64,000 bases of DNA from Verrucomicrobiota bacterium (lineage in GTDB: Bacteria > Verrucomicrobiota > Verrucomicrobiia > Limisphaerales > UBA1096): assembly GCA_030749225.1 (NCBI GenBank), contig JASMKO010000013.1, forward strand, positions 1-64,000, in the 5' to 3' direction. The notes under the pieces were generated by a model. That model worked only from the letters and a program-made list of their open reading frames with translations, was not told the origin of the DNA and searched no databases. Made by a program: the position numbers and the translations under genes. This document shows, one piece after another, positions 308 through 62,846 of this stretch (the stretch's first letter is position 1; each line of letters begins with the position of its first letter).

Positions 308-1330
308 CTCGTTGCATTCAGTCAGGGCGAGTAGGGCGAAGGTGGTGCCGGCGTGGGTGATGAAGTGATGCTTGTCGTTGTAGGTGGAGCGGGTGAACCA
401 CCGGCCGCTTTCTCGCTGGTTGGCCTTGAGCCATAGGACGCCCCGGCGAATGGCAGGGTGGTCTGGCGCGAGGCCGGATTTGCGGAGGGCAAAAACAACA
501 AAACCAGTGCCGTAGCCGTCGCTGCGATTGCGGACCTGCTCGGTGCCATCAGCTCGCTTCCAGTCGCCCAGCGTGGCGATAGCCCAGCCGCCGTCGGCCT
601 GTTGAAGTGCCAACAGGTTTTTTTGCCAGTTTGATTTGTCCTCGGATGAAACGGCGTCCGGTGTGGTTTGGCTGAGCCAGAGCATCATGCCTTTCTGGTG
701 AGCCAGCTTGGGCCGATTTTTTTTTAGCCACGAAAGGAGTTTTTTGTAGCCAGTGGCGGCATCCTTTGAAGCGGCATAGTTTTCAGGGGCACTGGCCACA
801 GCAATGGCGGCGAGGGTGACACCGTAGTGGTCGTCGGATTCGTACGGGCCCCAGCCGCACTTCAGCCAGTCCCACGAGCCATCCTCTCGCTGGGTTTTCC
901 ATGCCTCGGCGAAGGCGTTGCGGGTGGCCGGTGAAAGTTTGCCCTTGGCTGAGTCGTCCAGCGCCAGTGCGGCAGCGGTGGCCACAACGATATACGGGTC
1001 CGGTTTTTTCTCGGACCAACCGCTGACGTATTGCTCGAAGAATTGGCGGACGGCGACATGGGGCGCGGGGTCGGCCTGCAGCCGTGCCCGGCCGAGAAGG
1101 TAGGCGCCGTTGGTGTGGCAGGTGACGCATTCCCGGGAGCGTTGCCAGTGCAGCGAAGCGCGGTCGATGAAGTCCACCGCCTTGGCCGCGGAGAAGCGCT
1201 TGGCCAAGGGCTCGTCGGGAGAGTTAGCAGCAGGTTTCTCCAACTTGGCCAAGCTAGGCTGGCCAAAAGCAACCCCGCTGCCGTTGAATAGCATCGCACC
1301 GATAAAGCCTATTGATCGCAGTGTTGTCAT
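287..1330 (-). CDS. Secreted squalene-cyclase-repeat protein with a CxxCH haem motif
   Basis: A signal peptide (starting MTTLRSIGFIGAMLF) precedes a haem-binding-type CVTCH motif and an alpha/alpha-toroid of the prenyltransferase/squalene-hopene cyclase repeat kind. QW-like motifs are visible (QREDGSWDW, QQADGGWAIATLGDW, NQRESGRWF). The DxDD motif of true cyclases is not seen, so I infer a periplasmic haem protein built on the toroid fold rather than a hopanoid synthase. I chose the ATG at 1330; an in-frame TTG at 1366 lies inside a CTTGGCCAAG palindrome and gives a poor leader. Two further palindrome copies (1199, 1244) sit in the sequence just after the signal peptide and are read as Leu-Ala-Lys. 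It is convergent with the phage fragment. Confidence 0.7.
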   Translation of the reverse strand: MTTLRSIGFIGAMLFNGSGVAFGQPSLAKLEKPAANSPDEPLAKRFSAAKAVDFIDRASLHWQRSRECVTCHTNGAYLLGRARLQADPAPHVAVRQFFEQYVSGWSEKKPDPYIVVATAAALALDDSAKGKLSPATRNAFAEAWKTQREDGSWDWLKCGWGPYESDDHYGVTLAAIAVASAPENYAASKDAATGYKKLLSWLKKNRPKLAHQKGMMLWLSQTTPDAVSSEDKSNWQKNLLALQQADGGWAIATLGDWKRADGTEQVRNRSDGYGTGFVVFALRKSGLAPDHPAIRRGVLWLKANQRESGRWFTRSTYNDKHHFITHAGTTFALLALTECNELTEAKQ

Positions 1331-1375
1331 GGCGAGAAGCCTGCCATCCCTGCGCTGCTTGGCCAAGCGCTTGGT

Positions 1376-2266
1376 CTAGAAATCCAGTCCGGTGACGCGG
1401 GTGTAGGCCTCGATGTATTTATCGCTGGTTTTCTGCACGATATCCTCCGGCAACTCGGGGCCGGGATAAGTCTTGTCCCAGTCGAGTGTTTCAAGGTAGT
1501 CACGCACGAACTGCTTGTCGAAGCTTGGCTGGCTCTTGCCCGGCTCATAAAGGTCCGCCGGCCAGAAGCGGGATGAGTCGGGTGTCAGAACCTCATCGAT
1601 CAAGATCAGTTCGTCCTCGTAGATTCCGAACTCAAACTTGGTGTCGGCGATGATGATACCCTTGGTGGCAGCATGGTTGCGACCGCGCTTGTAAATCTCG
1701 ATGCTGAGGTCGCGCGCCTTTTCGGCGATGTCGCTGCCAACGATGTTGACGGCCTCCTCGAAGCTGATGTTCTCATCGTGACCCTCTTCGGCCTTGGTGG
1801 CCGGGGTGAAGATTGGCTCCGGCAGCTTGGAGGAGTTGTCGAGACCGTTCGGCAGCGCGATGCCGCAGACTGTGCCCTGTTTCTGGTACTCCTTCCAACC
1901 TGAGCCGGCGAGGTAGCCGCGCACGACGCACTCGATGGCAAGCGGTTGGGCTTTCTTTACAACCATCGCGCGGCGGCCGATCTGCTCAGCGTATTCGCGG
2001 ACGGCCTCGGGTAGCGGGTCGTTCGACCCCGCGAGGAGGTGGTTGGGAACAATGTCGATGAATTGATCGAACCAAAAGTGCGAGAACATCGTAAGGACTT
2101 CGCCCTTTTGCGGGATACCGTTGGGTAGCACGACGTCATAGGCGCTGATGCGGTCACTGGCCAGCATCAGAAGGCTGTCACCGAGATCGAACATTTCACG
2201 GACCTTGCCGCTGCGGACCTTGGGGATACCGGGGAGATCAAGTTGAAGCAGAGTGTTGCTCGACAT
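1376..2266 (-). CDS. purC: Phosphoribosylaminoimidazole-succinocarboxamide synthase (SAICAR synthetase)
   Basis: Joins aspartate to CAIR with ATP in de novo purine synthesis, in the cytoplasm. Family hallmarks are all present in order: SGKVREMF near the N-terminus, ASDRISAYDVVL, PIFTPATKAEEGHDENI, DTKFEFG, and LIDEVLTPDSSRFW. The length (296 aa) is that of the longer SAICAR synthetase type found in yeast and many bacteria, rather than the about 240-aa E. coli type. The ATG at 2266 starts directly before the conserved region; a GTG at 2317 in the same frame would add 17 unrelated residues. It lies just downstream of rsfS on the same strand, 81 bp away, and may be co-transcribed with it. No other purine genes are nearby. 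Confidence 0.95.
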   Translation of the reverse strand: MSSNTLLQLDLPGIPKVRSGKVREMFDLGDSLLMLASDRISAYDVVLPNGIPQKGEVLTMFSHFWFDQFIDIVPNHLLAGSNDPLPEAVREYAEQIGRRAMVVKKAQPLAIECVVRGYLAGSGWKEYQKQGTVCGIALPNGLDNSSKLPEPIFTPATKAEEGHDENISFEEAVNIVGSDIAEKARDLSIEIYKRGRNHAATKGIIIADTKFEFGIYEDELILIDEVLTPDSSRFWPADLYEPGKSQPSFDKQFVRDYLETLDWDKTYPGPELPEDIVQKTSDKYIEAYTRVTGLDF

Positions 2267-2347
2267 GCGGGCAGATGATGCTAGCCCAGCGGAAGTTTTC
2301 AAGACGATGTTATTCACAGCGCCCGTATCGCGCTTGGCGAAACGGGA

Positions 2348-2722
2348 TCAGGCTTGGGCAGCGACCGGTGAAGGTTCCTGTTCGAAGTCGATCCGCTTGG
2401 CATCCCCCCAGAGTCCCTCGAGGTCGTAAAGCTCGCGGAATTTGTCGTTCATCACATGGACGAGGACGTCGGTGAAATCGAGCACGACCCACGGCGTCAC
2501 GCGGGCGCCTTCGGCCGAGAAGGGGCGGATGCTGTGTTGTTCCCTCAGTTTCTCAGTGATTTCATCGACGATGGCGCGGAGGTGCGGTTCATTGGTGCCG
2601 GTGACGATGACAAAATAGTCGGCGACGGAGGAGAGTTCCCGGAGATCCAGCAGGGTGATGTTCTCGGCTTTTTTATTGTCGGCCAGCCGGGCGCAGGTGA
2701 GTGCGAGCTCTTTGGATTCCAT
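2348..2722 (-). CDS. rsfS: Ribosomal silencing factor RsfS (Iojap family)
   Basis: Binds ribosomal protein uL14 and blocks subunit joining when nutrients are scarce. The 124-residue protein shows the family motifs: VADYFVIVTGTNEPHLRAI in the first half, WVVLDFTDVLVHVM and YDLEGLWGDAK in the second. The chosen ATG (MESKELAL) at 2722 fits the usual family N-terminus; an upstream in-frame GTG/TTG-type start would translate the palindrome at 2750 and adds sequence foreign to the family. It often sits with nadD elsewhere; here it is followed by purC. Confidence 0.93.
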   Translation of the reverse strand: MESKELALTCARLADNKKAENITLLDLRELSSVADYFVIVTGTNEPHLRAIVDEITEKLREQHSIRPFSAEGARVTPWVVLDFTDVLVHVMNDKFRELYDLEGLWGDAKRIDFEQEPSPVAAQA

Positions 2723-2846
2723 AAACACGGAGTGGCGGAACCAAGTTCGCTTGGCCAAGGGCCGCCACACGGCCGGAGGCTAAACCAAGACCGGTTTTTG
2801 TAAACCGCAAACTGGCCAAGCGACAACGTTGCTGGGTGTTTTCAGC

Positions 2847-3474: not shown

Positions 3475-4554
3475 CTAGCAAATTTCCGTCAACTCGACCG
3501 CGCGGTGTTCCTCGGCGCTGCGATAGGCAGCCTCGACAAGAGCCATGGTTTTGAGGTTGTCACGCGCTGCGATGGCCGGTTCCCCGCCGGTCTCGAGAGC
3601 GATCAGCAATTGCGCCATGGTACCAATGAAGGCGTCAGGGAACCAACTCTCCGGCCAGGTGGGCGTATGGAATTCAGCATCGCCCTTGGACGCGTAGGTG
3701 ATTGTTGATGGTGTGGTGTAGGGATCGTGGCACCAGCCGATGTTGCCCTTGGCCAAGCCGTCGAGCCCCTCTATGCGCCACTCGATACCAATGTCGGCCG
3801 GTGCCCCTTCGCGGGCTGGGCCGGTCCAGGTGTCGTCAATGGCGATGGCTCGGAGGCCGCTGGCGTATTCGAGGATGTAGCTGGCGATGCCGTCGGTGTG
3901 CGGAAACTGGGTGCGCGGGTCGGTGCGTACGGTGCAGTAGATACGCTCGGGATCGCCGAACCAGTAGCGGAAGGTATCCATGTGGTGGATCGACATGATG
4001 CGCAGGGTGACCCAGCCCTGGCGTTCCTGCCACGGCATCCAGTGCGGGATGCCGCGCATGTCGATGGTGGCCAAGACCGGCTCCCCGATGGTGCCGTTGG
4101 TCAGGAGAGTCTTGCCGGCACGGACGGATTGGTCGTAGCGCATGTTTTGGTTCACGGCCAATATGATGCCGGCTTGCTCGCAAGCCTCAACCGCGGCGAC
4201 CGCCTCCGCGTAATTTGCGCCCAAAGGCTTCTGCGCGAGGATACCCTTAACAGTCCCGCGTTTGCAGGCAGCCTTGATGATGCTGAGTTGGTTGTCTGGA
4301 GGAACGGCGACGTCGAGCACCTCGATGGACTCGTCGTCGAGCAACTGGTCGATGGATTCGTGAACGGTCGCGATGGCGTGTTGCTCGGCGCACTTGGCGG
4401 CATTGTCCCGGGTTCGGGAGGCGATGGCGACCGGGTTAAAGCTGACCTTGTCGTAAGCCACGAGGTGGCAGTCGCTCATGATGAAGCCGCTGCCGATGCA
4501 GCCGATGCGCCAATCCAACCGGGTTGGAAGCGGTGAATGGATGTTCAGTTCCAT
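3475..4554 (-). CDS. Gfo/Idh/MocA-family NAD(P)-dependent oxidoreductase
   Basis: The N-terminal Rossmann fold carries the dinucleotide motif GCIGSGFI at about residues 18-25. The catalytic-type lysine lies in LAQKPLG, where most relatives have EKP; here Gln replaces Glu. The C-terminal domain has the family's sheet with HH in SIHHMDTFRYWFGDP. Such enzymes oxidise or epimerise sugars and cyclitols; the substrate cannot be told. The start is the ATG at 4554, preceded by GAGG about 9 bases upstream, and not the upstream start that would overlap the dioxygenase gene. It follows the PhyH gene by 14 bp, so the two are almost certainly one operon. No signal peptide, so cytoplasmic. Confidence 0.9.
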   Translation of the reverse strand: MELNIHSPLPTRLDWRIGCIGSGFIMSDCHLVAYDKVSFNPVAIASRTRDNAAKCAEQHAIATVHESIDQLLDDESIEVLDVAVPPDNQLSIIKAACKRGTVKGILAQKPLGANYAEAVAAVEACEQAGIILAVNQNMRYDQSVRAGKTLLTNGTIGEPVLATIDMRGIPHWMPWQERQGWVTLRIMSIHHMDTFRYWFGDPERIYCTVRTDPRTQFPHTDGIASYILEYASGLRAIAIDDTWTGPAREGAPADIGIEWRIEGLDGLAKGNIGWCHDPYTTPSTITYASKGDAEFHTPTWPESWFPDAFIGTMAQLLIALETGGEPAIAARDNLKTMALVEAAYRSAEEHRAVELTEIC

Positions 4555-4568
4555 CGTCTGCCTCTGTT

Positions 4569-5489: not shown

Positions 5490-6917
5490 TCAGTTGTGGG
5501 GCTTCGTGGAGACCGGCTTGCGGCTGCCCCGTTGGTATGTTGCGGAACTGCCGCTTGGTTTGGCCGGTGGAGGAACCGGCTTGTTGTACAGGTATTGGAG
5601 CAGGTTTGTGACGGACTGTGGGCCGCGATCCACGTGTACTTCAACGACGGGTCGTGGCAATTGGCCCGTGCTAATGTGAAATTTGTGCAGCGCATCGGCT
5701 TGTGAACTGGGTCGCTCGGCTTCCATCGATTCCTTGATGTAATCCTCGAAGAACTGCTGCAGTGGATCAAGCTCCTTCGGCTCGACGGGCGTGTGCTCTG
5801 TCTCGAGCGGTTTCACATAGTCTGGCAGCCGTACCGTGCTTGCGGCCACTGCTTGGTTGAACTCCGGCTCCGGGTCGCCGGTGATGGAGATGGGCGGCAG
5901 CGGGCGTATTCTCGGCTTGTGCGGCCGCGTGATGCGAAAGGCCGTGTTTCGGCTGTCGGCCATCTTGCGGATGTATTGTGTCGCATCCGCGATCTCCCCG
6001 GCGGAAAGCTCCGACGCAGCCTGGTCCAGTTCCACGACGGAGCGGTGTATATCGCGCGTCTCGGATTTGCTTCCGGTCACCAGAATGATGTTAGTTTGTT
6101 TCACCGGAACGATTCGCACATTGGTCTCGCCGTAAAGTGCTTGCAACTGGGTGGCCATTTCCCCGGCGTCGGCATGGTCCAGCTTGATGGCGGTATGGCC
6201 GCGCGTCACGGCGGTTGGCTTGCGCTCGATGGCACTGCGTTTTTTTGATGCCTGCAGCCGCTCACCGGGAGCTTGCCGGGGAGGTCTTGTCGGCGTGTCG
6301 CGGGGTTTGTCTTTGCCAAACCAATTCATCGGGTTGACCCGCTCTTTCCAACTTCTCTTCTGTGTAACGGGCTCCCTCCTACTCAACCAGCTCATTGGGT
6401 TCACGCGTTGCCGCCAGTTTGATTTTTCCTCCCCCACTTGCTTCTCCGCGTTTTTTCTGGCCTCGGTGTAAAAGCTGTCAGGCAGGTCGGCTTCGAGTTC
6501 CTCCTCGCTCACAATGCCGTCGGGGAGAATTGTCTTGTTAGCGATCAGGTATTCGCGATCATTCGGATCAGCTTGGGCGAGCAATTCGCGGATGCCGTCG
6601 ATTTCGCTCTTCGGGCCGATCACCACGACCCCCTTGGCCAAGCGGCTTGGTTCCACCACGCGGAAGGCATGGTCACGGCCGTAGGCGTCGTCCAGCATCC
6701 GCGACACATCGCCCGCGGTCAGCCGGTTGAGCGGGATTACCACTTGTCCTACCGGCGTTTGGATTTCGGACGGTGTCGGCTCCTCGGTGGTGGCCTTGCT
6801 GCGTTTTAGGATCCGCGGGAGGTACCCCTTCCGGGCCTGCGTCCCGACGGTCGAGCCAAGGATCAACAGTCCCACCAAGGTGGTTCGGATCATCGTTTGA
6901 GGGTGGATCAGCTTCAT
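5490..6917 (-). CDS. Secreted secretin-N-domain-like protein without a secretin barrel
   Basis: A signal peptide (MKLIHPQTMIRTTLVGLLIL) is followed by two secretin N1/N2-like modules: VVIPLNRLTAGDVSRMLDDA to about residue 125, and AIKLDHADAGEMATQLQALY to about residue 305. In type II/III secretins and PilQ these small alpha/beta modules precede the outer-membrane barrel; here no barrel follows, and the last 150 residues are Pro-rich. Between the modules lie two copies of a basic motif (WRQRVNPMSWLSRREP and WKERVNPMNWFGKDKP). It could be a periplasmic ring or adaptor partner for a dispersed type II/pilus-like system (see prepilins at 32994 and 40741, GspC-like protein at 48665). It stands alone on its strand. 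Confidence 0.65.
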   Translation of the reverse strand: MKLIHPQTMIRTTLVGLLILGSTVGTQARKGYLPRILKRSKATTEEPTPSEIQTPVGQVVIPLNRLTAGDVSRMLDDAYGRDHAFRVVEPSRLAKGVVVIGPKSEIDGIRELLAQADPNDREYLIANKTILPDGIVSEEELEADLPDSFYTEARKNAEKQVGEEKSNWRQRVNPMSWLSRREPVTQKRSWKERVNPMNWFGKDKPRDTPTRPPRQAPGERLQASKKRSAIERKPTAVTRGHTAIKLDHADAGEMATQLQALYGETNVRIVPVKQTNIILVTGSKSETRDIHRSVVELDQAASELSAGEIADATQYIRKMADSRNTAFRITRPHKPRIRPLPPISITGDPEPEFNQAVAASTVRLPDYVKPLETEHTPVEPKELDPLQQFFEDYIKESMEAERPSSQADALHKFHISTGQLPRPVVEVHVDRGPQSVTNLLQYLYNKPVPPPAKPSGSSATYQRGSRKPVSTKPHN

Positions 6918-7119: not shown

Positions 7120-9369
7120 ATGTTCTGCATGATTTCCGAAAAACGGTTCCGAATCGTCCCGTTGCTTGTGATCATCCCCACCGTCCAGTTGGCGGGTGCC
7201 GGTGAGATTCAGTTCAACCGGGATATCCGTCCGATTCTCTCCGACCATTGTTTTGCCTGCCACGGGCCGGACGCCAACCATCGCAAGTCCGGTCTCCGGC
7301 TGGACATCCATGAAGGGGCAGTGGCCGATCTTGACGGCTACTCGGCGGTGGTTCCCGGCGCGCCAGCCAAGAGCGAGTTGCTCGCCCGCATCACCACTGT
7401 CCATGAGGAGGACTTGATGCCTCCGCTGGAAACCGGCAAGCCGCTAACCGACGGGGAGAAAAAACTGTTGCACGACTGGATTGCCCAAGGCGCCGAATAC
7501 GAGGCGCACTGGGCCTACCTCCCGCCCAACCGCCCGGCTTTGCCGAGCGCCGATGACCGCGCTTGGGCAAGCGGAGCGATTGACCGCTTCATCATGGCAC
7601 GGCTCGAGAGAGCGAACCTGCTGCCGTCGCCCCCTGCGGACGCAGCAACACTTGCCCGTCGCCTGCACTTTGACCTCACCGGCTTGCCTCCATCGCCGCG
7701 CTTGGCCAAGCGCCTGGCCGAGTCGTCGCAGGCCTACACGGAGGTCGTGGACGAATTGCTGGCATCGCCGCAATTTGGCGAGCGTCTGGCCAGTTACTGG
7801 CTCGATCTTGTCCGTTACGCAGACACGGTCGGGTATCACGGCGATCAGGATCACTCGATCACGCCTTACCGCGACTGGGTCATCAAGGCGTTCAACGACA
7901 ACCTGCCGTTCGACCAGTTCACTGCCGAGCAACTCGCCGGCGATCTGCTCCCCGGGGCCACGGTGAACCAGAAAATCGCCAGCGGCTACAATCGTCTGCT
8001 GCAGACCTCGCACGAGGGCGGCGTGCAAAAAAAGGAGTACCTCGCCAAGTACTCGGCCGACCGCGTGCGCAACGTTTCCAACGTCTGGCTCGGGGCGACG
8101 ATGGGTTGCGCCGAGTGCCATGAACATAAATACGATCCGTTCACGCAACGGGATTTTTACAGCCTGGCCGCGTTTTTCGCCGACGTGAACGATGACAAGA
8201 CATTTAAAGGCACCAACACGCTTCCGACCAAGCGCGAGCCGGAATTGCTTGTCGCCTCGCCGCTGACCGTGTCACCTGCCAAACTGACGCGAACGATGGT
8301 AACCGGGCGCATCCAGCCGCGCCCGATTCGCATTTTGCTGCGCGGCAACTGGATGGACAACTCGGGCGAAATCGTCGCCCCGGCGGTGCCGCATTTTCTC
8401 CCGTCGATCAACGCAGCTGGCCGCGCAAACCGGCTTCACTTGGCCCGGTGGTTGACGGCCGCCAACAACCCGCTGACCGCGCGCGTGTTTGTGAACCGGC
8501 TTTGGTACCTGTTTTTCGGTTCAGGCCTGACGCGTTCGCTTGACGATACCGGCTCGCAGGGCCAATGGCCGACGCATCCGGCGTTGCTCGACTGGCTCGC
8601 GGTCGAGTTCATCGAGAGCCGGTGGGACATCAAGCACATCGTCCGACTCATTGTCACCTCGAGCACCTACCGCCAATCGTCACTTGTCACCCAGCAACTG
8701 ATCAAACTTGATCCGGAGAACCGCCTGTATACGCGGCAGGGGCGCTTCCGGTTTCCCGCCGAGACGATCCGCGACAACGCGTTGGCACTCGGTGGCTTGT
8801 TGAACGACCAAATGGGGGGGGCGGTCGCCAAGCCTTATCAGCCGGCCGGCTACTACGCGCCGCTCAACTTTCCCAAGCGCGCCTACAAGGCCGACGTGAA
8901 CGCCAACCAGTACCGGCGCGCCGTCTATGTGCATTGGCAGCGGCAGTTCCTTCACCCGATGTTCCGTGCGTTCGACGCGCCGACTCGGGAGGAGTGCACC
9001 GCGCAACGCCCGGTCAGCAACACACCGCTGGCCGCACTCACTCTGATGAACGACCCGACCTTCATTGAGGCGGCCAAAGGCTTTGCGGTTCGCATTCTCA
9101 CCCAAGCCGGGCCGGCCGATCACGAGCGGCTGGCGTGGGCGTGGCGCACCGGGCTTGGCCGTGAACCGGGGCGGGACGAGCTCGCCGTGGCCGGGTCGTT
9201 CCTAGTTGAAACCCGCCGGCGCTATGCGACCGACCCCAACGCCGCCAACGAGTTGCTTGCTGTGGGCATGCTTCAACTGCCCCGCGGCTTGGTGAAGCAG
9301 GAGGCCGCTGTGTGGACGGTTCTTGCTCAGGCGCTGCTGAACCTCAGTGAAACCATCACGCGAAACTGA
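7120..9369 (+). CDS. PSCyt1/DUF1549/DUF1553 secreted cytochrome-type protein
   Basis: A signal peptide is followed by INFNRDIRP-type sequence (IQFNRDIRPILSD) and the haem motif CFACHGPD, the planctomycete cytochrome c signature. DUF1549 follows (DRFIMARLERANLLPSP, then YWLDLVRYADTVGYHGD) with a second paired-Cys motif GCAECHEHKYDP, and DUF1553 begins at LARWLTAANNPLTARVFVNR. At about 750 residues it is shorter than many relatives because the segment between the two DUFs is short. The ATG at 7120 is preferred to the GTG at 7078; ATG 7129 is also possible. It is followed after 24 bp by a DUF1501 gene, the standard pairing. The pair is abundant in PVC bacteria and is thought to act in extracellular oxidative metabolism; biochemical function is not established. 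Confidence 0.92.
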   Translation: MFCMISEKRFRIVPLLVIIPTVQLAGAGEIQFNRDIRPILSDHCFACHGPDANHRKSGLRLDIHEGAVADLDGYSAVVPGAPAKSELLARITTVHEEDLMPPLETGKPLTDGEKKLLHDWIAQGAEYEAHWAYLPPNRPALPSADDRAWASGAIDRFIMARLERANLLPSPPADAATLARRLHFDLTGLPPSPRLAKRLAESSQAYTEVVDELLASPQFGERLASYWLDLVRYADTVGYHGDQDHSITPYRDWVIKAFNDNLPFDQFTAEQLAGDLLPGATVNQKIASGYNRLLQTSHEGGVQKKEYLAKYSADRVRNVSNVWLGATMGCAECHEHKYDPFTQRDFYSLAAFFADVNDDKTFKGTNTLPTKREPELLVASPLTVSPAKLTRTMVTGRIQPRPIRILLRGNWMDNSGEIVAPAVPHFLPSINAAGRANRLHLARWLTAANNPLTARVFVNRLWYLFFGSGLTRSLDDTGSQGQWPTHPALLDWLAVEFIESRWDIKHIVRLIVTSSTYRQSSLVTQQLIKLDPENRLYTRQGRFRFPAETIRDNALALGGLLNDQMGGAVAKPYQPAGYYAPLNFPKRAYKADVNANQYRRAVYVHWQRQFLHPMFRAFDAPTREECTAQRPVSNTPLAALTLMNDPTFIEAAKGFAVRILTQAGPADHERLAWAWRTGLGREPGRDELAVAGSFLVETRRRYATDPNAANELLAVGMLQLPRGLVKQEAAVWTVLAQALLNLSETITRN

Positions 9370-15458: not shown

Positions 15459-15466
15459 CGATAAAG

Positions 15467-17221: not shown

Positions 17222-17525
17222 CGCTTGGCCAAGCGCTTGACTGCCTTCGCTTGGCTGCGGTTTGGCTAACCGGGTTGACTGGCAGATTTCCGAGGTGTAG
17301 TTTGCAGGGCTGTCACCCAGTCCGATGAAAGCTGCCTTCTTCCTCAATAGCCCCTTTTCCCTCAAGTTTTTAGCGTTATTGCCGATGTGAGTCGTGGTGG
17401 AGTGTTATTAATCGGGGGCATTTAGCGGGATTGATCTGGCGTGGGATTAAGTAATTTTGACAGTTGAAAGCGAGAATCGACGCCATCCGAAGGCCTCAGC
17501 AGCGCGAGACGTTGAACGGAGCAGA
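17222..17525. other. Leader region of the giant Ig-repeat gene
   Basis: About 300 bases without a credible gene. It begins with a 14-bp perfect palindrome CGCTTGGCCAAGCG (17222-17235) right after the PQQ gene's stop. A promoter-like pair, TTGACT and TAGTTT 17 bp apart, lies at 17275-17303. A 21-codon open frame beginning at the ATG near 17325 has a hydrophobic look but no other support. No T-rich terminator was found. Confidence 0.35.
17275..17303 (+). promoter_or_regulatory. Possible sigma-70-type promoter for the giant secreted protein
   Basis: TTGACT (17275-17280) and TAGTTT (17298-17303) are separated by exactly 17 bp and point toward the gene starting at 17526. The -35 matches the consensus at five of six bases and the -10 at four of six. 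No other evidence. Confidence 0.3.
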
Positions 17526-36680: not shown

Positions 36681-36769
36681 GGGTGGATTGTAGCGGCAGG
36701 CAACACCGTTGCGCAACCCGCTAGTGTGCCACTTGGCCAAGCTTGCTGGTCAATGGGTTTTGTGAGTTG

Positions 36770-49486: not shown

Positions 49487-49930
49487 TTATTCTGCGATGG
49501 AAACCTCGAACGGTTTGCTGGCCTCGACCTTTGGCAACTCGACCTTGAGTAGTCCGTTCTTGAACTCGGCCTTGATCTTTCCGTTCTCCACTCCGCTGCC
49601 CAGTTCGAACGAGCGGCTGAACTTGCCATAAGCCCGCTCGTAGCGGTGGCCAAATTCCTTACTTTCGCTGTGCTCGCTCTTGCGCTCGCCGGTCAGCGTC
49701 AGCACGCCATCTTCCAACGTCAGGTTGATGTCGTCCTTGGTCAGGCCGGGCAGATCGGCGGTCAGTGTATAGGCGTCGGTCGACTCGACAATATCCACCG
49801 GCGGGTTCCACGCACCGGCTTGGGCGGCCTTGGCCAAGCTCCCGATTGAGTCGTTGAACAGGGTGCCGAACACATCCTCAAACACATTCAGCGGATTCGC
49901 ATTTCGTTTCGTGCATGTCATCATACTCAT
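49487..49930 (-). CDS. Hsp20/alpha-crystallin small heat-shock protein
   Basis: An ATP-independent holdase. The alpha-crystallin domain spans about residues 43-140: PPVDIVESTDAYTLTADLPG, INLTLEDGVLTLTGERK, and GKFSRSFELGSGVENGKIKA with NGLLKVELPK. The C-terminal IxI motif is not seen, ending FEVSIAE. 147 residues. The ATG 49930 follows AGGAAA and overlaps the stop of a 35-codon open frame as ATGA. Expressed as a unit with its terminator at 49431. A palindrome (49829) encodes Leu-Ala-Lys in the N-terminal arm. Confidence 0.95.
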   Translation of the reverse strand: MSMMTCTKRNANPLNVFEDVFGTLFNDSIGSLAKAAQAGAWNPPVDIVESTDAYTLTADLPGLTKDDINLTLEDGVLTLTGERKSEHSESKEFGHRYERAYGKFSRSFELGSGVENGKIKAEFKNGLLKVELPKVEASKPFEVSIAE

Positions 49931-54300: not shown

Positions 54301-54357
54301 TGGTTTGCAGCTTGGCCAAGCGCCCCGAACGCTTCGCCAAGTTTTGATTTACCGGAG

Positions 54358-54411: not shown

Positions 54412-56523
54412 GTGAAAATTTCAGAAATAATATCACCTCGCTTGGCTCCGCTTTGGCTGGCATTTGGCCTTTTGGCATTTGTCGCGCCGGGTTTGGCCAA
54501 GGCGGAGGAGGGGCCATGGCGCTGGTCCAACCCCCGGCCGCATGGCAACTCCATCCGTGCCATCGCCAACGGCGACGACTTCGCGATTGAGGTCGGCGAC
54601 AACGGCTCGATTCACACCAGCCAAAACAGGGTGCAGTGGTTCCCGCGTGAGAGCGGTGTGGAGCAGACGCTGCGCGCGGTTGTGTTCTTTAAGGAGCAGG
54701 CGGTCGTGGCCGGCGGTGACGGTACGCTGCTGTACAGCAAGGGCGAGGAACAGTTTACGCCGGGCGAACTGGATACGCCGACAGATGAAGCCTTCCGCGC
54801 CCTGGCGGCCTCGGACAAGACGATCGTGGCCGGTGGCAGCAATGGCACGCTCTACACCAGCACTGATGGCCGGAAGTGGCACAAACGAACCTTCCGGTAC
54901 AACAACCACATTCATGCACTAAGTTGGACTGGAAAATATTTTGTTGCCGTGGGCGAGAGCGGTCTAGTGGTTACCAGCACCAACGGCAGTTCGTGGACCA
55001 AGCGCCAGAGCCGTTCGAACCGCGACCTCAATGCGCTGGCCTACGTCAACAAGCGCCTATGGACCGTGGGCAATGACGGCGTTGTGTTGCTCAGTTACAA
55101 CGACGGTGTCTCGTGGCTTGCGGCCAGTTCTGGCACCGACAAAAATCTGAACGCCGTCACCGGCACGCCATCAGAGGTCATCATTGCTGGCGAGAATGTC
55201 GTGCGGAAGGGCATTCTTGATTTTTTCATGTACTGGGTCGACCTGCTCGAGGATGACGAGGGCACCAACCCCTCGCCGCCACCGGACTGGACCTATTACT
55301 GTGCCATCGAGGTGGATGGTAAATACCTGCTCGGCGGCCGCACTGGCATGCTCGTGGACAGCGTGCGCGACGAGGAGGATGACGCCTACCTCTACTGGTT
55401 CAGCGCCGACGACTCGGTGCGTAACTGGCTTTGGGACATCAACCGGGTTGGCGACCTGATGGTCACCGTCGGCGACCATGCCACCGTGTTGACAAGCCGC
55501 GACGGTGTCGCGTGGAATCTTGAGGTCGTGCCCGAGGCGGCGACCCAGTCGATCCTGCTCGGCGTCGGCGGAACAACCAACCTGCTTGTTGCCGTTGGCA
55601 ACCACGGCCAACTGCTGACGAGCCACAATTCCTGGACCAATGTCGTGACAAAAAACGACCTTGGCCAAGCGGAGACAAACAAGGTCAACACCCTGGGCGT
55701 CGTCTGGGAGGCGGTTACACCGAAGCCGACCATCAACGATCTGCAGGGTGTCGCCGCGCTTGGCGGCACATGGGTCGTCACCGGAGGCAAGGGCACGGTG
55801 TTGACAACTCAGGACGGCAAACAATGGGCCGCCCACCAGGCCCCGGCCACCGGCATCCTCACCAGCGTTGAGGCGTTCGGGGAACAGTTCGTGGCCACTG
55901 GCGAGGACGGCGTTATCGTCACTTCGCCCGACGGCGTCGACTGGGCCAAGCGCGACTCAGGCACGGTCCACTGGATTTACCGCGTGCGCGTGTTCGACGG
56001 CCAATTGGTTGCCGTTGGCCAAGCGGGAACGATCCTCACCAGCGGCGACGGCGAGACTTGGGTCAAGCGCGACAGCGGCACCGGTCAATGGCTCAACGAC
56101 GTCACTCGAGTCGGTGGCACGTGGTATGTCGTCGGCGCGAACGGGACGGTGCTGACCAGCTCCGACCTCGTGTCGTGGGAGGCCAAGGGCACGGTCACTG
56201 GGCTGTCGCTTTACGGTGCCCTGGACAACGACGGCCAATTTCTGTCCGTGGGGCTCGAGGGGATAATTCTCCGAAAACAAATTGTGCCGCGCACCAATCC
56301 GATCCTGATACGCTGGGAGCGCAGCGTCACCGCCGATGGCGAGGTCACGAATCAATTCGTCTTTCGCGGCTTCCCTGGCCAGCGATTTTCGCTTGATCGC
56401 AGTCCGGACCTGAAGACATGGGAGTCCGGGCCGGAGTTGGAGTTGCTCGACGGCTCCGGTGTGCTCGAGTACTCCAACACCACCCGCGCTGGAGGCGAGT
56501 TTTACCGCGCAAAACTGCGCTGA
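54412..56523 (+). CDS. Secreted beta-propeller protein with Ycf48/BNR-like repeats and C-terminal module
   Basis: From GTG 54412: a signal peptide (LAPLWLAFGLLAFVAPGLAK), then about ten repeats of the form VGxNGTVLTSxDGxxW (for example GGSNGTLYTSTDGRKW, GQAGTILTSGDGETW, GANGTVLTSSDLVSW). This is the Ycf48/sialidase-like propeller pattern. The last 90 residues carry FRGFPGQRFSLDRSPDLKTW and end GGEFYRAKLR, a module common at the C-terminus of verrucomicrobial exported proteins. Its stop TGA abuts directly on the stop of the convergent immunophilin gene. Likely extracellular; ligand unknown. Confidence 0.85.
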   Translation: MKISEIISPRLAPLWLAFGLLAFVAPGLAKAEEGPWRWSNPRPHGNSIRAIANGDDFAIEVGDNGSIHTSQNRVQWFPRESGVEQTLRAVVFFKEQAVVAGGDGTLLYSKGEEQFTPGELDTPTDEAFRALAASDKTIVAGGSNGTLYTSTDGRKWHKRTFRYNNHIHALSWTGKYFVAVGESGLVVTSTNGSSWTKRQSRSNRDLNALAYVNKRLWTVGNDGVVLLSYNDGVSWLAASSGTDKNLNAVTGTPSEVIIAGENVVRKGILDFFMYWVDLLEDDEGTNPSPPPDWTYYCAIEVDGKYLLGGRTGMLVDSVRDEEDDAYLYWFSADDSVRNWLWDINRVGDLMVTVGDHATVLTSRDGVAWNLEVVPEAATQSILLGVGGTTNLLVAVGNHGQLLTSHNSWTNVVTKNDLGQAETNKVNTLGVVWEAVTPKPTINDLQGVAALGGTWVVTGGKGTVLTTQDGKQWAAHQAPATGILTSVEAFGEQFVATGEDGVIVTSPDGVDWAKRDSGTVHWIYRVRVFDGQLVAVGQAGTILTSGDGETWVKRDSGTGQWLNDVTRVGGTWYVVGANGTVLTSSDLVSWEAKGTVTGLSLYGALDNDGQFLSVGLEGIILRKQIVPRTNPILIRWERSVTADGEVTNQFVFRGFPGQRFSLDRSPDLKTWESGPELELLDGSGVLEYSNTTRAGGEFYRAKLR

Positions 56524-57864
56524 TCACCCGCCGGGTGTCACATCGGTCAGGAGTATTTCCATCAGCACCACTGAGTGCGCCGGGACGCGATTGGCGAACC
56601 AGCCAAGCTTGCCGTAAGCCAGCTCCGGCGGAATGTAAAGCATCGCGTGGCCTCCTTTTTTCATCCGCTTCAGGCCCTCAGCAACGCCCGGCAGCGATTT
56701 CGCCAGATCCTTCATCGAGAGTATGAGTGGAGCGGGTGCCGGATTCACTGAGTCGGCGAATATCCTGCCAAACTCGTTCGCCTCCGAGACCAGTTCCGCA
56801 ATGAAATGAAACGTGACTGTGTCGCTGTCTTTAACCAGCGCACCGCTTCCCGGCTTCAGTTCCTCGTAGATGAGTCCCGACTCGGTCGGCTCGATTTTTA
56901 GCAATTCCTGGATTTCCTCCATCTGCCTCGCGGCGATGTCCTGCTGCATCTGGTCGATCGTTGTCTCGGTGGCCTCGAATGCCTCCGCCTTCTCCCCTAC
57001 GCGCAGGATGCGAATGCTCTCGATGATGACGTCCGTTGTGGGTTTGCTCGGGCCGCTGACATCGACGCCGGCGATCTTATCGACGACATCGAGACCATGG
57101 ATCACGCTACCGAAAACGGAGTGGTTTCCGGCGCGGATGTCGGTGAAGTCCAGCCACGGTGTCGCGGCGTGTGTTATGAAAAACTGGCTGCCGTTCGTGT
57201 GCTCGCCGGAGTTGGCCATCGAGAGGACGCCCGGGCCATCGTGCTTGAGGTCGGGATGAAACTGGTCCGGCAACCAGTAGCCGGGGTTGCCGGTTCCGTT
57301 GCCCTGAGGGCAGCCGCCTTGGATCATGAAGTCTTTGATGACGCGGTGAAAAATTAGCCCGTCAAAGTACGGCTTGCCCTCGGGGTCGGCCGGGAATATC
57401 TGGGTGTCTTTGCTGTAAAACTTTGTGCCCTCTGCCAGCGCGATGAAGTTGGCGACAATGAGCGGCACCTTCTCGTACTCGAGCCGGGCTGTCATCTCAC
57501 CGAGACTAGTCGTGATCTTCGCATAAATGCCGTCTTCCATCACGTCGGATGGGGGTTCCACTTTCAACCGAATAAAAAAGGGCGATTCAGCGGCGGGCCG
57601 TTGGGTCTCCCAGTGAAGGGGCGTTTTCCCGGCGACCTCTTGGCCGAGTGCCTCCCACTGTTTGAGGTCGGGGGACCCTTGGATGAACAGTTTCGAGCCG
57701 GCCTCCGCGTCGCGGATCGTAAGCGCGACTGTTTGGCGTTTGGCATCGCCGTCGACCGGCGTGACATCGATCGACAAAATCGCGTCGGTACCTTGGCCAA
57801 GCGCTGCCGCGCTCAACAGGCAAAGCGCCAGCGCGGCGAGAGTTCGGTAAAAAACATTCAACAT
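56524..57864 (-). CDS. Secreted cyclophilin-FKBP dual peptidyl-prolyl isomerase
   Basis: From ATG 57864: signal peptide (MLNVFYRTLAALALCLLSAA), an N-terminal module (SKLFIQGSPDLKQWEALGQE to SPFFIRLKVE), a cyclophilin domain at about 105-290 (IFHRVIKDFMIQGGCPQGNG, VLSMANSGEHTNGSQFFITH, VFGSVIHGLDVVDKI), and a C-terminal FKBP domain at about 330-446 (LPGVAEGLKRMKKGGHAMLY, IPPELAYG). Active-site residues of both families (Arg, Phe and Gln in FHRVIKDFMIQGG) are kept. Two unrelated isomerase folds in one chain are known from a few organisms (FCBP/CFBP), so this is a rarer arrangement. Probable role: folding of exported proteins. Confidence 0.92.
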   Translation of the reverse strand: MLNVFYRTLAALALCLLSAAALGQGTDAILSIDVTPVDGDAKRQTVALTIRDAEAGSKLFIQGSPDLKQWEALGQEVAGKTPLHWETQRPAAESPFFIRLKVEPPSDVMEDGIYAKITTSLGEMTARLEYEKVPLIVANFIALAEGTKFYSKDTQIFPADPEGKPYFDGLIFHRVIKDFMIQGGCPQGNGTGNPGYWLPDQFHPDLKHDGPGVLSMANSGEHTNGSQFFITHAATPWLDFTDIRAGNHSVFGSVIHGLDVVDKIAGVDVSGPSKPTTDVIIESIRILRVGEKAEAFEATETTIDQMQQDIAARQMEEIQELLKIEPTESGLIYEELKPGSGALVKDSDTVTFHFIAELVSEANEFGRIFADSVNPAPAPLILSMKDLAKSLPGVAEGLKRMKKGGHAMLYIPPELAYGKLGWFANRVPAHSVVLMEILLTDVTPGG

Positions 57865-58038
57865 GACTCTTGGTCGGGGAGTGTTGCTGTTGTGCTGCTG
57901 CGCGGCCATCTTTTTCGGTCTCCCTATCTTGGCCAAGTTAGCCGTCTGCCCAATTATGGTTGCTGTTTTGCGATTGGCCAGTAGCATCGCCGGAGTTGCC
58001 CGACGAAACCCGACCAGATTGTCGTGCGGCTTGTTCTC

Positions 58039-61000
58039 ATGATGAAATATTATTTCGCAACGCTCTCCTTGGCCACTCTTAGCTTGGCCGTCGCGGTGGC
58101 GGCCCCGCTTGAAGCCAGGTTAGATGCCGGCTCCGGCACGATCACCATCCACCGCGAAGGCTTGGCCAAGCCGGTGGTCACCCAGAACGCCGCGCCTGAT
58201 CATCGGCCGTACCTGCACCCGATTATCGGGCCTGACGGAAAGGGTGTATTTACCCAGTACAGCCCCGGGCATCACAAGCATCAGACTGGCATCTACTGGG
58301 GTTTCACCCGCGTGAACGGGCGCGACTATTTCCACCACCCCGCCAGCGATTACTGGAAGCGCAAGGGAGTGAAGGTGCTTGAGGCCAAGGGCGACTCGGT
58401 GAAGTGGGAGACGGTCTACGAACTGCTCGATGCCGACGGCAACGCGGTGCTGACCGAGACGCAGCGATGGACAATGCGTTCCGATACCGGCCGTCACATC
58501 CTCGATCTAGAATGGCGCGGTCAGGCGCGAACCGATGTCACGATAGGCAAGTACGATTACGGCGGGCTGTTTCTCCGCATGCCTTGGGAGAAGGGCATCG
58601 AGGGCGAGGCAGTCAACGCTGCTCGCGATTCCAACCGCCGCGCCGAGGGCAAGCGTGCCATGTGGCTCGATGTCGGCATGGAGATCGAGGGTCGCGACGA
58701 CAGGGGACACATCGCGATTTTTGATCATCACAAAAACACGGGCTATCCGCAGCCATGGCGGGTCGACGGTCAGCTCGGTGTCGGCCCGGTGCGCGCGCGG
58801 CTTGGCGACTGGAAGATTGCCCAAGGCAAGACCGAGACCATCCGCCACCAGATTCAGGTTTACGGTGGCAAGCTCGATGACAAGGAGTTGACCAACCGCT
58901 GGAAAGCCTACACTGGCCAAAGAGGTACGTACGCGCTTTGGCAACTGGCCAAGCGCGCCGGTCGAGAGGCCAAATTTCTCTCCCCACAAGAGGCGGTCGA
59001 TAACTCGACCATCGAGGATGGCTTCACCGTGAACTCATGGGCCAACGAGCCGATGATCACCCAGCCGATGGCGTTTTGCTGGGATGACAAGGGCCGCATG
59101 TGGGTGGCCGAAAACCGCGACTATGAAACCCGCGGCCGGGGCTTCTCTGCCTTTGGCGACAGTCGCATACTGATTCTGGAGGACACCGACCGCGACGGTG
59201 TGGCTGACAAGCGATCGGTTTTTCTCGAAGGTATTCCGTTTCCGTCCGCTGTGGCGGTGGGGTTGGATGGACTGTGGCTCGGTGCTCCACCAAACCTACT
59301 ATTCGTCCCGGATCGCAACAAGGACGACAAGGCCGATGTTGACGACATCGAGGTGCGCCTGACCGGCTGGGGCATCCGCGACCGGCACGAGGTGCTCAAC
59401 AGCCTGCACTGGGGGCCGGACGGCTGGATTTACGGTTGTCAGGGCGTGTTCACCCCGTCGGTGGTCGGCAAGCCAAAGGGGGCTGGAAAGATTTTCAGGC
59501 ATGGCGAGCCATACCCGAAATCGGTCGAGTTTGAGGGTGAAGGCCAGCCGATCAACGGCGGTGTATGGCGTTATCATCCGACCAAGGATGTCTTTGAGAT
59601 TGTCGCGCACGGCTTCAGCAACCCGTGGGGCATCGACTACGACGCCAAGGGGCAGTTGTTCATTAGCGCCTGCGTGATCCCCCACTTGTGGCATGTCATC
59701 CCCGGCGGTGCGTATCATCGCCAGGCCGGTCGTCATTTCAACCCGTACGTCTACAGTGACATCCGCACGATCGCGAACCACCGTCACCGCTCGGCACACG
59801 GCGGTGCGCGCGTCTATCTGTCTGACGCCTATCCGGACGAGTATCAGGGGAAGATTTTCATGGCCAACATCCACGAGCATGCGGTGTTGACCGATGAACT
59901 GGTTCCTACCGGCTCAGGTTATTTGGGCATACATCACAAGGATTTTATGCATGCCAATAACGAGCAATGGATTGGCTTCAGCATGGAGATCGGCCCGGCT
60001 GGCAACGTGTTCGTCCTCGACTGGCACGACGGCGACATCTGCGGCAACGCCGTGCTGCAGAAACACACCGGCCGCATCTTCCGGCTCGCGCCCAAGAAGA
60101 GCCTGGCCAAGGACTGGGAAGGCCGCTACGACGACGTTGAAAAACTTAGCGACGCAAGGCTTGTCGAGTACCAGACTAACGCCAGCTCATGGCACGCCCG
60201 CCGCGCGCGCGTCGTCCTGCAGGGCCGCGCCATCAACGGCAAACTCGCCAAGGGCACGCACCGTACGCTCAAGCAGATGTTCCGCAAAAACAAAAACGCC
60301 GACCACCGCCTTCGCGCGCTCTGGGCGCTTCACGTTATCGGCGGGCTGAGCGAGTCGGACAACATCAAGAATCTCAACGACAAGGACGAACACATCCGTG
60401 CGTGGACGATTCAATTCCTCTGCGAAGACAAGACCCCGTCCAGCCGTGCGCTGAAAAAATTCGCGACCATGGCCGGCAAGGATGCCTCACCTGTGGTGCG
60501 CCTCTATCTCGCCTCCGCGATGCAGCGCATATCGCTCGACAAACGCTGGGAAATTGCCGCCGGCCTGGTTACCCACTCGGAGGATGCTGATGACCACAAT
60601 CTGCCGAAGCTGATCTGGTACGGCATCGAGCCGCTCGTGCCGGAAAACCAGGCGCGCGCCATGAAGCTGGCCCAAGCCAGCCAACTGCCGTTAGTGACCG
60701 AGTACATCGCCCGCCGCGCCGTGGATGCCCGCCAGCTTGAGGCACTCTCTCAGGCACTTGGCCAAGCGGAAGGCAGCGAGACCGTCACCAACATGCTGCG
60801 TGGGTTCGGCGCCGGGCTTAAGGGACTGCGCGACGTTGAGGCACCGGCCAGCTGGGGAGCCACCTATGCCAAGCTGCAGAATCACCCGCTGGCCACGTCG
60901 ATCGCACAGATTCTCGGCGATGCCGGGGCCGTGACTGCCATGCTGGCAACACTCGACAACGCCAAGGCCAAGCCGGTTGACCGCCAGACGGCACTTCGCG

Positions 61001-61824: not shown

Positions 61825-61836
61825 AACGACCAAATC

Positions 61837-62001
61837 ATGCCTGAAACAACGCCAGAGGAAGCCCAAGCGCCCGCCAAGCGTGCGTCCCAGCCGAAGGACA
61901 AAGCCGCCCGGATACTCGGTTGCTGGATCGTCGCCGGCATCATCGTTGAGACTTCTGCCGACCAGATCATCCACTTTCTCCGGGCCCTTACCTCCACCTG
62001 A
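61837..62001 (+). CDS. 54-residue small protein upstream of larE
   Basis: ATG 61837 opens 54 codons: a polar, Pro/Lys-rich N-terminus (MPETTPEEAQAPAKRASQPK) and a hydrophobic segment (ILGCWIVAGIIVETSAD) with a short tail to TGA. This could be a small single-pass membrane protein. It lies 12 bp after the fusion gene and 8 bp before larE, all on one strand, and has normal codon use for the window. No family recognised. Confidence 0.5.
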   Translation: MPETTPEEAQAPAKRASQPKDKAARILGCWIVAGIIVETSADQIIHFLRALTST

Positions 62002-62009
62002 GCGCTTGC

Positions 62010-62846
62010 ATGGCGACGGAAAAACTCAACTTCCTCCGGGAGATTTTGCATGGGTACGGCTCCTGTTTGGTGGCGTACTCGGGTGGGGTAGATTCGGTGC
62101 TGCTGGCACATGTCGCCCATGAAATGCTTGGCAAACGTATGCTCGCGGTGATCGCCGACTCGTTGAGCTTGCCGCGCCGCGAATTGGCCGAGGCTCGGGA
62201 GATCGCCGAGGCGCACGGCTTCCCGCTACGGATCATCCAGACGCGTGAATTTGCCAACCCGGACTACACCGCCAACCCGTTCAATCGCTGTTACTTTTGC
62301 AAACGCGAGTTGTTCACGCGGCTCGAGCCGATCGCGCTCGAGGGCGGGTTCGCGGTGCTGGCCTACGGCGAAAACGCCAGCGACATAGGCGACCACCGGC
62401 CCGGTGCCGAGGCGGCCAAACAATTTGAAGTGCGCGCCCCGCTTAAGGAGGCCGGCTTGGCCAAGGGCGACATTCGCTCCCTCTCCGCTGTGCTTGGTTT
62501 GCCCACCGCCGACAAGCCGCAAATGCCCTGCCTCAGCTCGCGCATCCCGTACGGCCAAGCGGTCACGCCGGAAAAACTGGCAATGATTGAGCAGGCTGAG
62601 GGCGTGTTACGTGACGCCGGTTTTAGTGAAGTGCGCGTGCGCCACCACAGCCAGCCTGGCGGCGCGCTGGCTCGGCTCGAGCTTGGCCAAGCTGAGATGA
62701 AACGGTTTGTCGCCGAGGGCATGATGGAGACCGTGTCGTCGCAAATCCGCGAGGCCGGTTTCACCGACGTCATCCTTGACACAAAAGGCTACCGGCGCGG
62801 CAGTCTCAACCAGGGCCTTCCGGAAGCGGTCTTTGCCAACGGCTGA
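62010..62846 (+). CDS. larE: ATP-dependent sacrificial sulfur transferase LarE
   Basis: A PP-loop ATPase that sulfurates the nicotinic-acid-derived precursor of the nickel-pincer (NPN) cofactor. The PP-loop is YSGGVDSVLLAHVAHEML at about residue 23; YGENASDIGDHRPGAEAAKQ is the second conserved block, and PCLSSRIPYGQAVTP carries the Cys that corresponds to the sacrificial one. There is also CYFCK near residue 93, so the protein has three conserved-type cysteines; that pattern would fit the [4Fe-4S]-assisted LarE subtype, which is inferred. larA, larB and larC are not in the window. Overlaps the next gene by one base (TGATG). Palindromes at 62456 and 62682. Confidence 0.9.
   Translation: MATEKLNFLREILHGYGSCLVAYSGGVDSVLLAHVAHEMLGKRMLAVIADSLSLPRRELAEAREIAEAHGFPLRIIQTREFANPDYTANPFNRCYFCKRELFTRLEPIALEGGFAVLAYGENASDIGDHRPGAEAAKQFEVRAPLKEAGLAKGDIRSLSAVLGLPTADKPQMPCLSSRIPYGQAVTPEKLAMIEQAEGVLRDAGFSEVRVRHHSQPGGALARLELGQAEMKRFVAEGMMETVSSQIREAGFTDVILDTKGYRRGSLNQGLPEAVFANG

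Follow-up and report, generated by a model that had tools for sequence, protein, structure and literature searches.

The 10-bp palindrome CTTGGCCAAG is repeated throughout a 64,000-nt stretch of a Verrucomicrobiota bacterium (contig JASMKO010000013.1, positions 1 to 64,000, all of it referred to here as the window), and it recurs 1520 times in the genome to which the window belongs (3,083,908 bases in 120 contigs, 80% complete), where a reversed control word is found 5 times. The feature is a real and strong one that is specific to a clade: it is a trait of one genus of Limisphaerales/Pedosphaeraceae-type Verrucomicrobiota, its sites are kept at the DNA level in both coding and non-coding DNA, and it has written Leu-Ala-Lys (LAK) and Leu-Gly-Gln (LGQ) into proteins. 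As to what it is for, we regard the chances as evenly balanced that CTTGGCCAAG is a genus-specific, genome-wide site of the highly iterated palindrome (HIP) kind, maintained by selection as the target of a dimeric DNA-binding protein. A literature search confined to open-licence papers showed no description of the motif among the papers listed.

A first-pass annotation of the window had reported at least 33 exact copies between 1199 and 62691 and a chance expectation of about 0.06. Exactly 33 are counted, the first starting at 1199 and the last ending at 62691, against expectations of 0.07 (order-0 Markov model), 0.42 (order 3) and 1.8 (order 4), or of 0.28-1.5 (orders 3-5) once the exact copies are masked. 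No other 10-mer, palindromic or not, is as common in the window, and the runner-up among 10-mer palindromes has 3 copies. The excess also stands in the genome-wide count that the annotation had proposed as a check, with a density of 493 per Mb and an observed over expected ratio (O/E) of 396 against base composition and of 68 against an order-3 model, these ratios being those of a 335-kb sample of the genome made up of the window and 20 further stretches. This sample holds 153 copies, compared with 0-4 in four order-3 simulations; its called genes, which are open reading frames (ORFs) picked by a codon model in this analysis and owe nothing to prior annotation, hold 112, compared with 7.5 in 30 synonymous-codon shuffles and 4.8 in five further ones. 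A general excess of GGCC-containing words, which the annotation had said would remove the special status of the 10-mer, is not seen: GGCC in the same genes is at shuffle level (2544 versus 2679) and CTTGGCCAAG is far above it, so that it is the 10-mer and not GGCC that is special, with TGGCCA at 383 versus 199. The coding excess over synonymous shuffles is repeated in other genomes of the genus, at about 17- to 21-fold in G017, G008, G015 and G003 and at 17 versus 0.7 copies in G020. Relative to base composition, the excess of the motif in this genome falls steeply from 395 for the exact word to 13.8, 2.0 and 0.44 at one, two and three mismatches. At Markov orders 5-6 the O/E drops to about 1.9, since fragments of the motif itself saturate the model, and in a pooled set of metagenome-assembled genomes (MAGs) at order 6 CTTGGCCAAG lies outside the five top 10-mer palindromes; order 3 and the codon shuffles were preferred over orders 5-6 for judging the excess. 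A different word, TCCTCGAGGA, is over-represented in the pooled MAG loci L007-L012, L014-L016, L018 and L020 (11 versus 1.0, order 6).

Comparison with orthologous DNA of relatives reveals conservation beyond neutral expectation; two small subsets, taken up below, show less of it or none. In alignments of 75-80, 80-84, 84-90 and 90-96% identity, exact matches to the motif 10-mers of this genome make up 52% of 60, 54% of 80, 67% of 30 and 78% of 9 cases, respectively, as against 13, 18, 25 and 47% for all 10-mers taken together; starting instead from the relatives' motifs, 51% of 61, 44% of 98 and 47% of 43 are kept in the first three identity classes. When the peptide is matched, a 10-mer that spells LAK by way of the site is kept in 49% of 90 cases at 75-84% identity and in 74% of 27 at 84-96%, as against 13% of 71 and 9% of 23 for LAK written otherwise (per-site averages 0.38 over 24 sites versus 0.02 over 28), and for LGQ at 75-84% identity the figures are 73% of 26 versus 29% of 35. 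Intergenic sites are kept in 48% of 23 cases versus 13% of all intergenic 10-mers (75-84% identity). The contrast is sharpest at fourfold degenerate positions in the 75-90% alignments, which are identical in 221 of 231 cases inside sites (96%) and in 25,637 of 42,518 outside (60%), and it holds codon by codon: CTT 25/25 inside versus 467/1267 outside, GCC 101/108 versus 2684/3419 and GGC 47/48 versus 2955/3794.

LAK is the most over-represented tripeptide in the called proteins of the genome, occurring 161 times where amino-acid frequencies predict 42.8, and LGQ occurs 87 times where 25.6 are expected; AKR, LGQ, GQA and RLA are also within the top six, and the reversed controls are at expectation (KAL 43 versus 42.8, QGL 24 versus 25.6). 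In G017, G008, G015 and G003, LAK ranks 1-2 and LGQ 1-5, and in G020 LGQ ranks first and LAK ninth. Keeping the site at the DNA level thus alters proteins, and the force responsible suffices to decide which tripeptides are most over-represented in a proteome.

In full, the site is a palindrome of 14 bp, (S)CGCTTGGCCAAGCG(S). The annotation had noticed the symmetric extension and placed 14-bp copies at 7699, 15924, 17222, 32062 and 36615; all five are there, and the consensus flanks do extend the palindrome, with G at -1 (0.67), C at -2 (0.57) and G or C at -3 (0.80) in this genome and an identical extension in seven motif-rich species (G000, G014, G020, G008, G003, G015 and G017). Flank information dies within 3-4 bp and is nearly nil past 4 bp, and half-sites recur chiefly as the full inverted form (153 versus 2) plus a 12-bp tandem overlap. 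Of the 153 sites of the sample, genes contain 112 and intergenic DNA 39, with 2 more at gene edges, and of the 33 copies in the window, 26 fall within called genes and 7 between them; the frames used in genes are TTG GCC AAG (LAK, 69 sites), CTT GGC CAA (LGQ, 41) and TGG CCA (2). Placement in this genome is near Poisson (variance/mean 1.00-1.25 in bins of 1-8 kb) and no regular spacing of sites was found in it. Over 1.04 Mb from five species, pairs of sites separated by 10-190 bp outnumber expectation about twofold (105 versus about 52), within which the excess of 12-bp spacings is real (7 versus 0.29) and that of 114-bp spacings (6 versus 0.29, in several genomes) may be chance over the many distances; the window has three 114-bp pairs, at 1244/1358, 14222/14336 and 34865/34979. 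There is also some tendency for sites to follow stop codons closely. This genome has 16 that start no more than 24 nt past one, some of which already lie in the following gene, and the excess is evident in G017 (23 versus 9.3 expected), G008 (7 versus 2.1) and G003 (6 versus 1.8) and not clear in G015 (2 versus 1.6) and G020 (0 versus 0.2). A role as an RNA hairpin or terminator was considered and rejected, as a downstream T-run is present in only about 3 of 18 after-stop sequences and 112 of the 153 sites lie in genes.

How the sites come and go was asked of the same alignments, in line with the annotation's proposal to follow gain and loss among orthologs. Among 208 comparisons of sites with their orthologs, 107 are identical, 57 differ by one mismatch, 22 by two and 17 by three or more, and 5 contain an indel; for random 10-mers, indels were found in 443 of 8040. 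Sites therefore arise and differ among relatives by point substitution. The annotation had also offered the invasion of a small palindromic element, with which the high copy number and some tandem copies would accord, but the rarity of indels at sites and the loss of flank information within 3-4 bp make this extremely improbable, and the differences among orthologs, nearly all of them gapless, do not fit the unit insertions and empty sites characteristic of repetitive extragenic palindromic (REP) or miniature inverted-repeat transposable element (MITE) families.

The relatives of the window's PurC are Verrucomicrobiota MAGs labelled Verrucomicrobiales, Limisphaerales or Pedosphaera, with one near relative labelled Deltaproteobacteria, and the genus is probably marine, to judge from the isolate names of its uncultured members. 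Eighteen of its 21 genomes, the present one included, are rich in the motif, with 427-3274 copies each or about 130-830 per Mb; the 20 others comprise 17 in this range and 3 with 41-57 copies. In 77 genomes from other families of the same order there are 0-39 copies (control word 0-33), and the highest count in 386 further genomes across the phylum is 76. The three motif-poor genomes, G001, G005 and G019, have a GC content of 0.40-0.42, compared with 0.51-0.61 in motif-rich samples, and show a small residual excess (order-3 O/E about 10, based on 1-3 sites per sample); no alternate palindrome stood out in samples of 142 kb from G001, 173 kb from G019 and 48 kb from G005. A MutS tree of 25 rows, each the longest ORF of its locus (G014, with MutS in two frames, G008, with no hit, L403 and the outgroup loci L407-L415 being left out), joins the motif-poor genomes (100/100) and places them within the genus (97/94) next to motif-rich ones, and a PurC tree agrees weakly (82/85). 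This position inside the genus suggests loss, and it is likely, though not settled, that the motif is ancestral to the genus and has decayed in one low-GC clade. LAK and AKR remain raised there (1.89- and 1.88-fold, as against 0.68-1.46- and 0.40-0.90-fold in four outgroup sets), which we read as the fossil of a lost DNA motif. One relative with a GC content of 0.516 (L006, PBKH01000032.1) carries 11 copies of TTGGCCAA and 3 full 10-mers in 20.9 kb, and its consensus has possibly loosened or is shifting.

The GGCC core is a common methyltransferase target, and the annotation had suggested that the site might be such a target kept by mismatch-type repair. In the corresponding model for cyanobacteria, a methyltransferase acts on the site, which repair directed by the modification then creates and fixes in the manner of a ratchet, so that a cognate enzyme is needed, and high-frequency palindromes do accompany cognate methyltransferases in the excerpts of Elhai (2015; PMC4390886) used here; a GGCC m4C enzyme of Synechocystis is named in an excerpt of PMC6604393. 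Over the 21 genomes of the genus, however, the C5 family (PF00145) was found in G008 alone, PF01555 (N6/N4) and PF02086 (D12) in none, and PF02384 (N6_Mtase) in three, as borderline hits of about 20 bits of which one is in a motif-poor genome; the same searches were positive in 4-13 of 14 control genomes. No family among these four is therefore common to the genus; another family, such as the Eco57I/MmeI-type methyltransferases, or another DNA modification, such as phosphorothioation, may act instead. As the MAGs are 61-93% complete, one missing hit says little on its own, whereas a hit missing from almost every genome does count. The G008 hit lies in a 3.1-kb locus (L005, contig C53) with 0 motifs and a GC content of 0.538 versus 0.606 in the G008 sample, and is perhaps a recent arrival or bin contamination. 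Together with the lack of any GGCC excess and the modest one of TGGCCA in synonymous shuffles, this leaves a modification-driven palindrome improbable and argues that DNA methylation is probably not the driver. Nor does the site look like a restriction-modification target, being over- and not under-represented.

A purely site-specific bias of mutation or repair, Vsr-like or akin to gene conversion, could turn near-sites into sites with no benefit to the cell. The substitutions by which relatives' sites differ and the excess of tandem sites 12 bp apart are what it would produce, and a phage-like sequence described below suggests that sites may be acquired by any DNA that replicates in the cell. 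Such a bias would have to override amino-acid constraint as well, given the LAK and LGQ excess, and the mechanisms of this type known to us all need a modified base, for which no shared methyltransferase was found among the four families. MutS was rejected as the cause of the difference between motif-rich and motif-poor genomes: it is present in 20 of the 21, including all three motif-poor ones, the lone miss being the motif-rich G008. We judge this explanation to be quite improbable.

A DNA-uptake signal would spread in another way, by the preference of competent cells for site-bearing DNA followed by import and recombination, as with the DNA uptake sequences (DUS) and uptake signal sequences (USS) of Neisseriaceae and Pasteurellaceae. 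ComEC (PF03772) is found in 9 of 18 motif-rich genomes, including all 3 that are at least 90% complete, and in 0 of 3 motif-poor ones. Moreover, identity between window positions 38429-64000 and contig C5 of G017 (L188, L189) is a mosaic in 1-kb bins, at 91-96% over 39-47 kb, 85-87% over 48-52 kb, 74-83% thereafter and 93% at 63 kb, and these steps point to recombination between species of the genus. Taken together, the two patterns keep recombination or uptake a live alternative. The mismatch spectrum is like that of the Pasteurellaceae uptake sequence (DUES; 145, 10.0, 1.1 and 0.32 at 0-3 mismatches) in the part of PMC1939737 used here, but it is equally like that of the cyanobacterial HIP1 10-mer in the same source (1129, 10.4, 1.3 and 0.22), so the spectrum does not separate the two readings; the uptake sequences known from that part of the paper are also non-palindromic, and CTTGGCCAAG is a perfect palindrome of 10 to 14 bp. 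The ComEC split is itself not significant, since 12 of the 21 incomplete MAGs lack a hit, 9 motif-rich ones among them, and the chance that all three motif-poor genomes do so is about 0.17. Finally, the phage-like L297 (IMGVR_UViG_3300032087_002358; ORFs read by eye as terminase, portal and DnaB-type) is itself enriched, which uptake does not predict. It has 4 exact copies and 8 of TTGGCCAA in 13.7 kb, where 0.015 and 0.20 are expected, and as a candidate phage, in this one case, it may infect the genus, which would favour an intracellular explanation; its relatives L367, L368, L369 and L370 (80-89% terminase identity) have 0, 0, 1 and 0 exact copies, which weakens the lead. Uptake thus seems to us a possible but unlikely explanation.

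In a viral survey, at least 120 stretches bear the 14-mer, 114 of those listed with a single copy; the viral matches listed also include 2 dimer and 27 close-pair contigs. Seven of these contigs (L364, L365, L430, L431, L434, L441 and L442) were set aside, as their copies fall in the coding region of a Gly-Gln-rich phage protein, seen directly in L364, L365 and L431, by similarity in L430 and L434 and inferred from matching spacing in L441 and L442. The 104-kb viral contig L435 (IMGVR_UViG_3300025936_000016) has six CTTGGCCAAG with differing flanks in 5.4 kb (1918-5321), cgc preceding four of them, and five copies in L437 (IMGVR_UViG_3300031733_000002, 37-238) have an exact 48-bp period and form a tandem repeat.

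It is to a site for a dimeric protein that we return as the preferred reading. The two-fold symmetry, the presence in genes and gaps alike and the steep fall-off with mismatches suggest that the palindrome is recognized as double-stranded DNA, and the perfection of the symmetry and the sharp specificity would suit a putative homodimeric DNA-binding protein. Such a protein might serve the chromosome as a whole, in its organisation, repair or homologous recombination, and not single genes; cells with a dense set of sites would then be favoured, because the service is to the whole chromosome, and each site would be under weak but real selection. Several observations weigh against this reading or against parts of it. 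No binding protein has been found, the gene content of motif-rich and motif-poor genomes not having been compared, and biased site-specific repair would equally give conservation without selection. The conservation is not uniform: relatives' motifs at 90-96% identity are kept in 50% of 14 cases versus 47% of other 10-mers, LGQ shows no contrast at 84-96% identity (50% of 6 versus 47% of 15), and its per-site contrast is small (0.43 over 11 sites versus 0.32 over 11). The peptide-matched comparison draws on 40 different sites out of 153 (24 LAK, 11 LGQ and 5 intergenic), and the counts are not independent, as the same sites are seen in several related genomes, some of which are represented by both a named and an unnamed copy. 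The density of intergenic sites is highest in divergent gaps (11 in 8.6 kb), lower in tandem gaps (19 in 24.4 kb) and lowest in convergent gaps (3 in 8.0 kb), so that some may have a regulatory role. As for loss, an approximately unbiased (AU) test does not reject a single clade of all 16 motif-rich rows of the MutS tree (p 0.117); 0 of 14 sites aligned to motif-poor stretches are intact there and 3 are one mismatch off; and in the motif-poor clade LGQ (1.71-fold versus 0.35-1.57-fold outside the genus) and GQA (1.41 versus 0.47-1.30) are less clearly raised than LAK, and RLA is not raised (1.47 versus 0.92-1.69).

The individual sites of the window are collected in the table. A family search bore out the annotation's labels for purC (1376-2317) and prfC (13289-14926). 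Three sites lie in a giant ORF at 17457-30176 on the forward strand (start also given as 17526; 4239 aa), whose product may, as a guess, be an NHL-type repeat protein and which contains a 162-bp tandem repeat array of 5.9 copies at 23369-24322. A 120-bp tandem repeat in two copies (96% matches) is found at 54051-54296.

Table. Copies of the palindrome in the window; strand is '.' throughout, and 'kept' gives the number of aligned relatives with an identical 10-mer over the number aligned.
Feature	Position	Strand	Context	Kept
CTTGGCCAAG	1199..1208	.	in ORF 287-1294(-), LAK frame	
CTTGGCCAAG	1244..1253	.	in ORF 287-1294(-), LAK frame	
CTTGGCCAAG	1358..1367	.	intergenic; near-copy in tandem 12 bp on	
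CTTGGCCAAG	2750..2759	.	intergenic	6/16
CTTGGCCAAG	3748..3757	.	LAK frame	9/11
CTTGGCCAAG	6633..6642	.	LAK frame	9/11
14-bp form CGCTTGGCCAAGCG	7699..7712	.	LAK frame	core 10/15
CTTGGCCAAG	9468..9477	.	LAK frame	5/14
CTTGGCCAAG in prfC	14222..14231	.	LAK frame	5/13
CTTGGCCAAG in prfC	14336..14345	.	LAK frame	9/13
14-bp form CGCTTGGCCAAGCG	15924..15937	.	LGQ frame	core 8/13
14-bp form CGCTTGGCCAAGCG	17222..17235	.	immediately past stop codon at 17221	core 4/8
CTTGGCCAAG in giant ORF	19781..19790	.	LAK frame	
CTTGGCCAAG in giant ORF	26936..26945	.	LAK frame	
CTTGGCCAAG in giant ORF	27191..27200	.	LAK frame	
14-bp form CGCTTGGCCAAGCG	32062..32075	.	intergenic	
CTTGGCCAAG	34865..34874	.	LAK frame	0/2
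CTTGGCCAAG	34979..34988	.	LGQ frame	
14-bp form CGCTTGGCCAAGCG	36615..36628	.	LGQ frame	core 1/4
CTTGGCCAAG	36732..36741	.	intergenic	2/3
CTTGGCCAAG	38424..38433	.	LAK frame	4/5
CTTGGCCAAG	44758..44767	.	LAK frame	5/11
CTTGGCCAAG	45955..45964	.	LAK frame	6/14
CTTGGCCAAG	46970..46979	.	LGQ frame	11/12
CTTGGCCAAG	49829..49838	.	LAK frame	1/7
CTTGGCCAAG	54311..54320	.	intergenic	
CTTGGCCAAG	55660..55669	.	LGQ frame	0/2
CTTGGCCAAG	57792..57801	.	LGQ frame	
CTTGGCCAAG	57928..57937	.	intergenic	
CTTGGCCAAG	58161..58170	.	LAK frame	1/1
CTTGGCCAAG	60757..60766	.	LGQ frame	1/1
CTTGGCCAAG	62456..62465	.	LAK frame	1/1
CTTGGCCAAG	62682..62691	.	LGQ frame	1/1

Dimeric chromosome proteins with palindromic sites are familiar from parS, Noc, SlmA and matS, whose sites number in the tens and lie in set chromosome regions. 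What CTTGGCCAAG shares with them is the palindrome and a placement independent of genes; it differs in its 427-3274 copies per motif-rich genome and in a near-Poisson placement in the sampled genome. For HIP, a long-range chromosomal periodicity was reportedly found by Xu et al. in 2018. The uptake words of Neisseriaceae and Pasteurellaceae (DUS, USS and DUES) are alike in copy density, in occupying genes and gaps, in being one word across a clade and, in the excerpts available, in mismatch spectrum, but are asymmetric there.

The closest likeness is to HIP1 (GCGATCGC) and the alternate HIPs of cyanobacteria, and the annotation's comparison with HIP1 in density and in disregard of gene boundaries is borne out and now extends to most of the genus. 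Both are short GC-rich palindromes at hundreds per Mb in genes and gaps (300-2700 per Mb with an O/E of 55-228 in most cyanobacteria; Table 2 of Elhai, 2015, PMC4390886), and as far as the excerpts of that literature go they also have in common a spread by substitution, loss in some lineages and a similar fall-off with mismatches. The differences are another phylum and another sequence, no cognate methyltransferase shared in the genus among the four families searched, no alternate palindrome standing out in samples of motif-poor genomes, and a tripeptide imprint on the proteome that is not met for HIP1 in the excerpts of PMC4390886. With the huge over-representation of a GC-rich palindrome, its presence in genes and gaps, its spread by substitution and its conservation all found here, and a shared cognate methyltransferase not found in the four families searched, CTTGGCCAAG is a variant of the HIP kind and not a plain member of it. 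We would give slightly less than an even chance to the idea that this is a methylation-independent HIP outside cyanobacteria in which the dense 14-bp site of a dimeric protein rewrote the proteome (RLAKR, LGQA) and was then lost in a low-GC clade, leaving protein fossils; if so, genome-wide palindromes need no methyltransferase, and the genus offers a natural experiment of gain and loss by which to find the protein. The purpose of HIP1 itself is still described as open in the parts of PMC4390886 and PMC6604393 used here. With a HIP1-like phenomenon in a second phylum, where a motif-poor clade probably lies within the genus and no methyltransferase was found to be shared, the two leading ideas, a ratchet of methylation and repair and a protein-binding function, can be tested separately.

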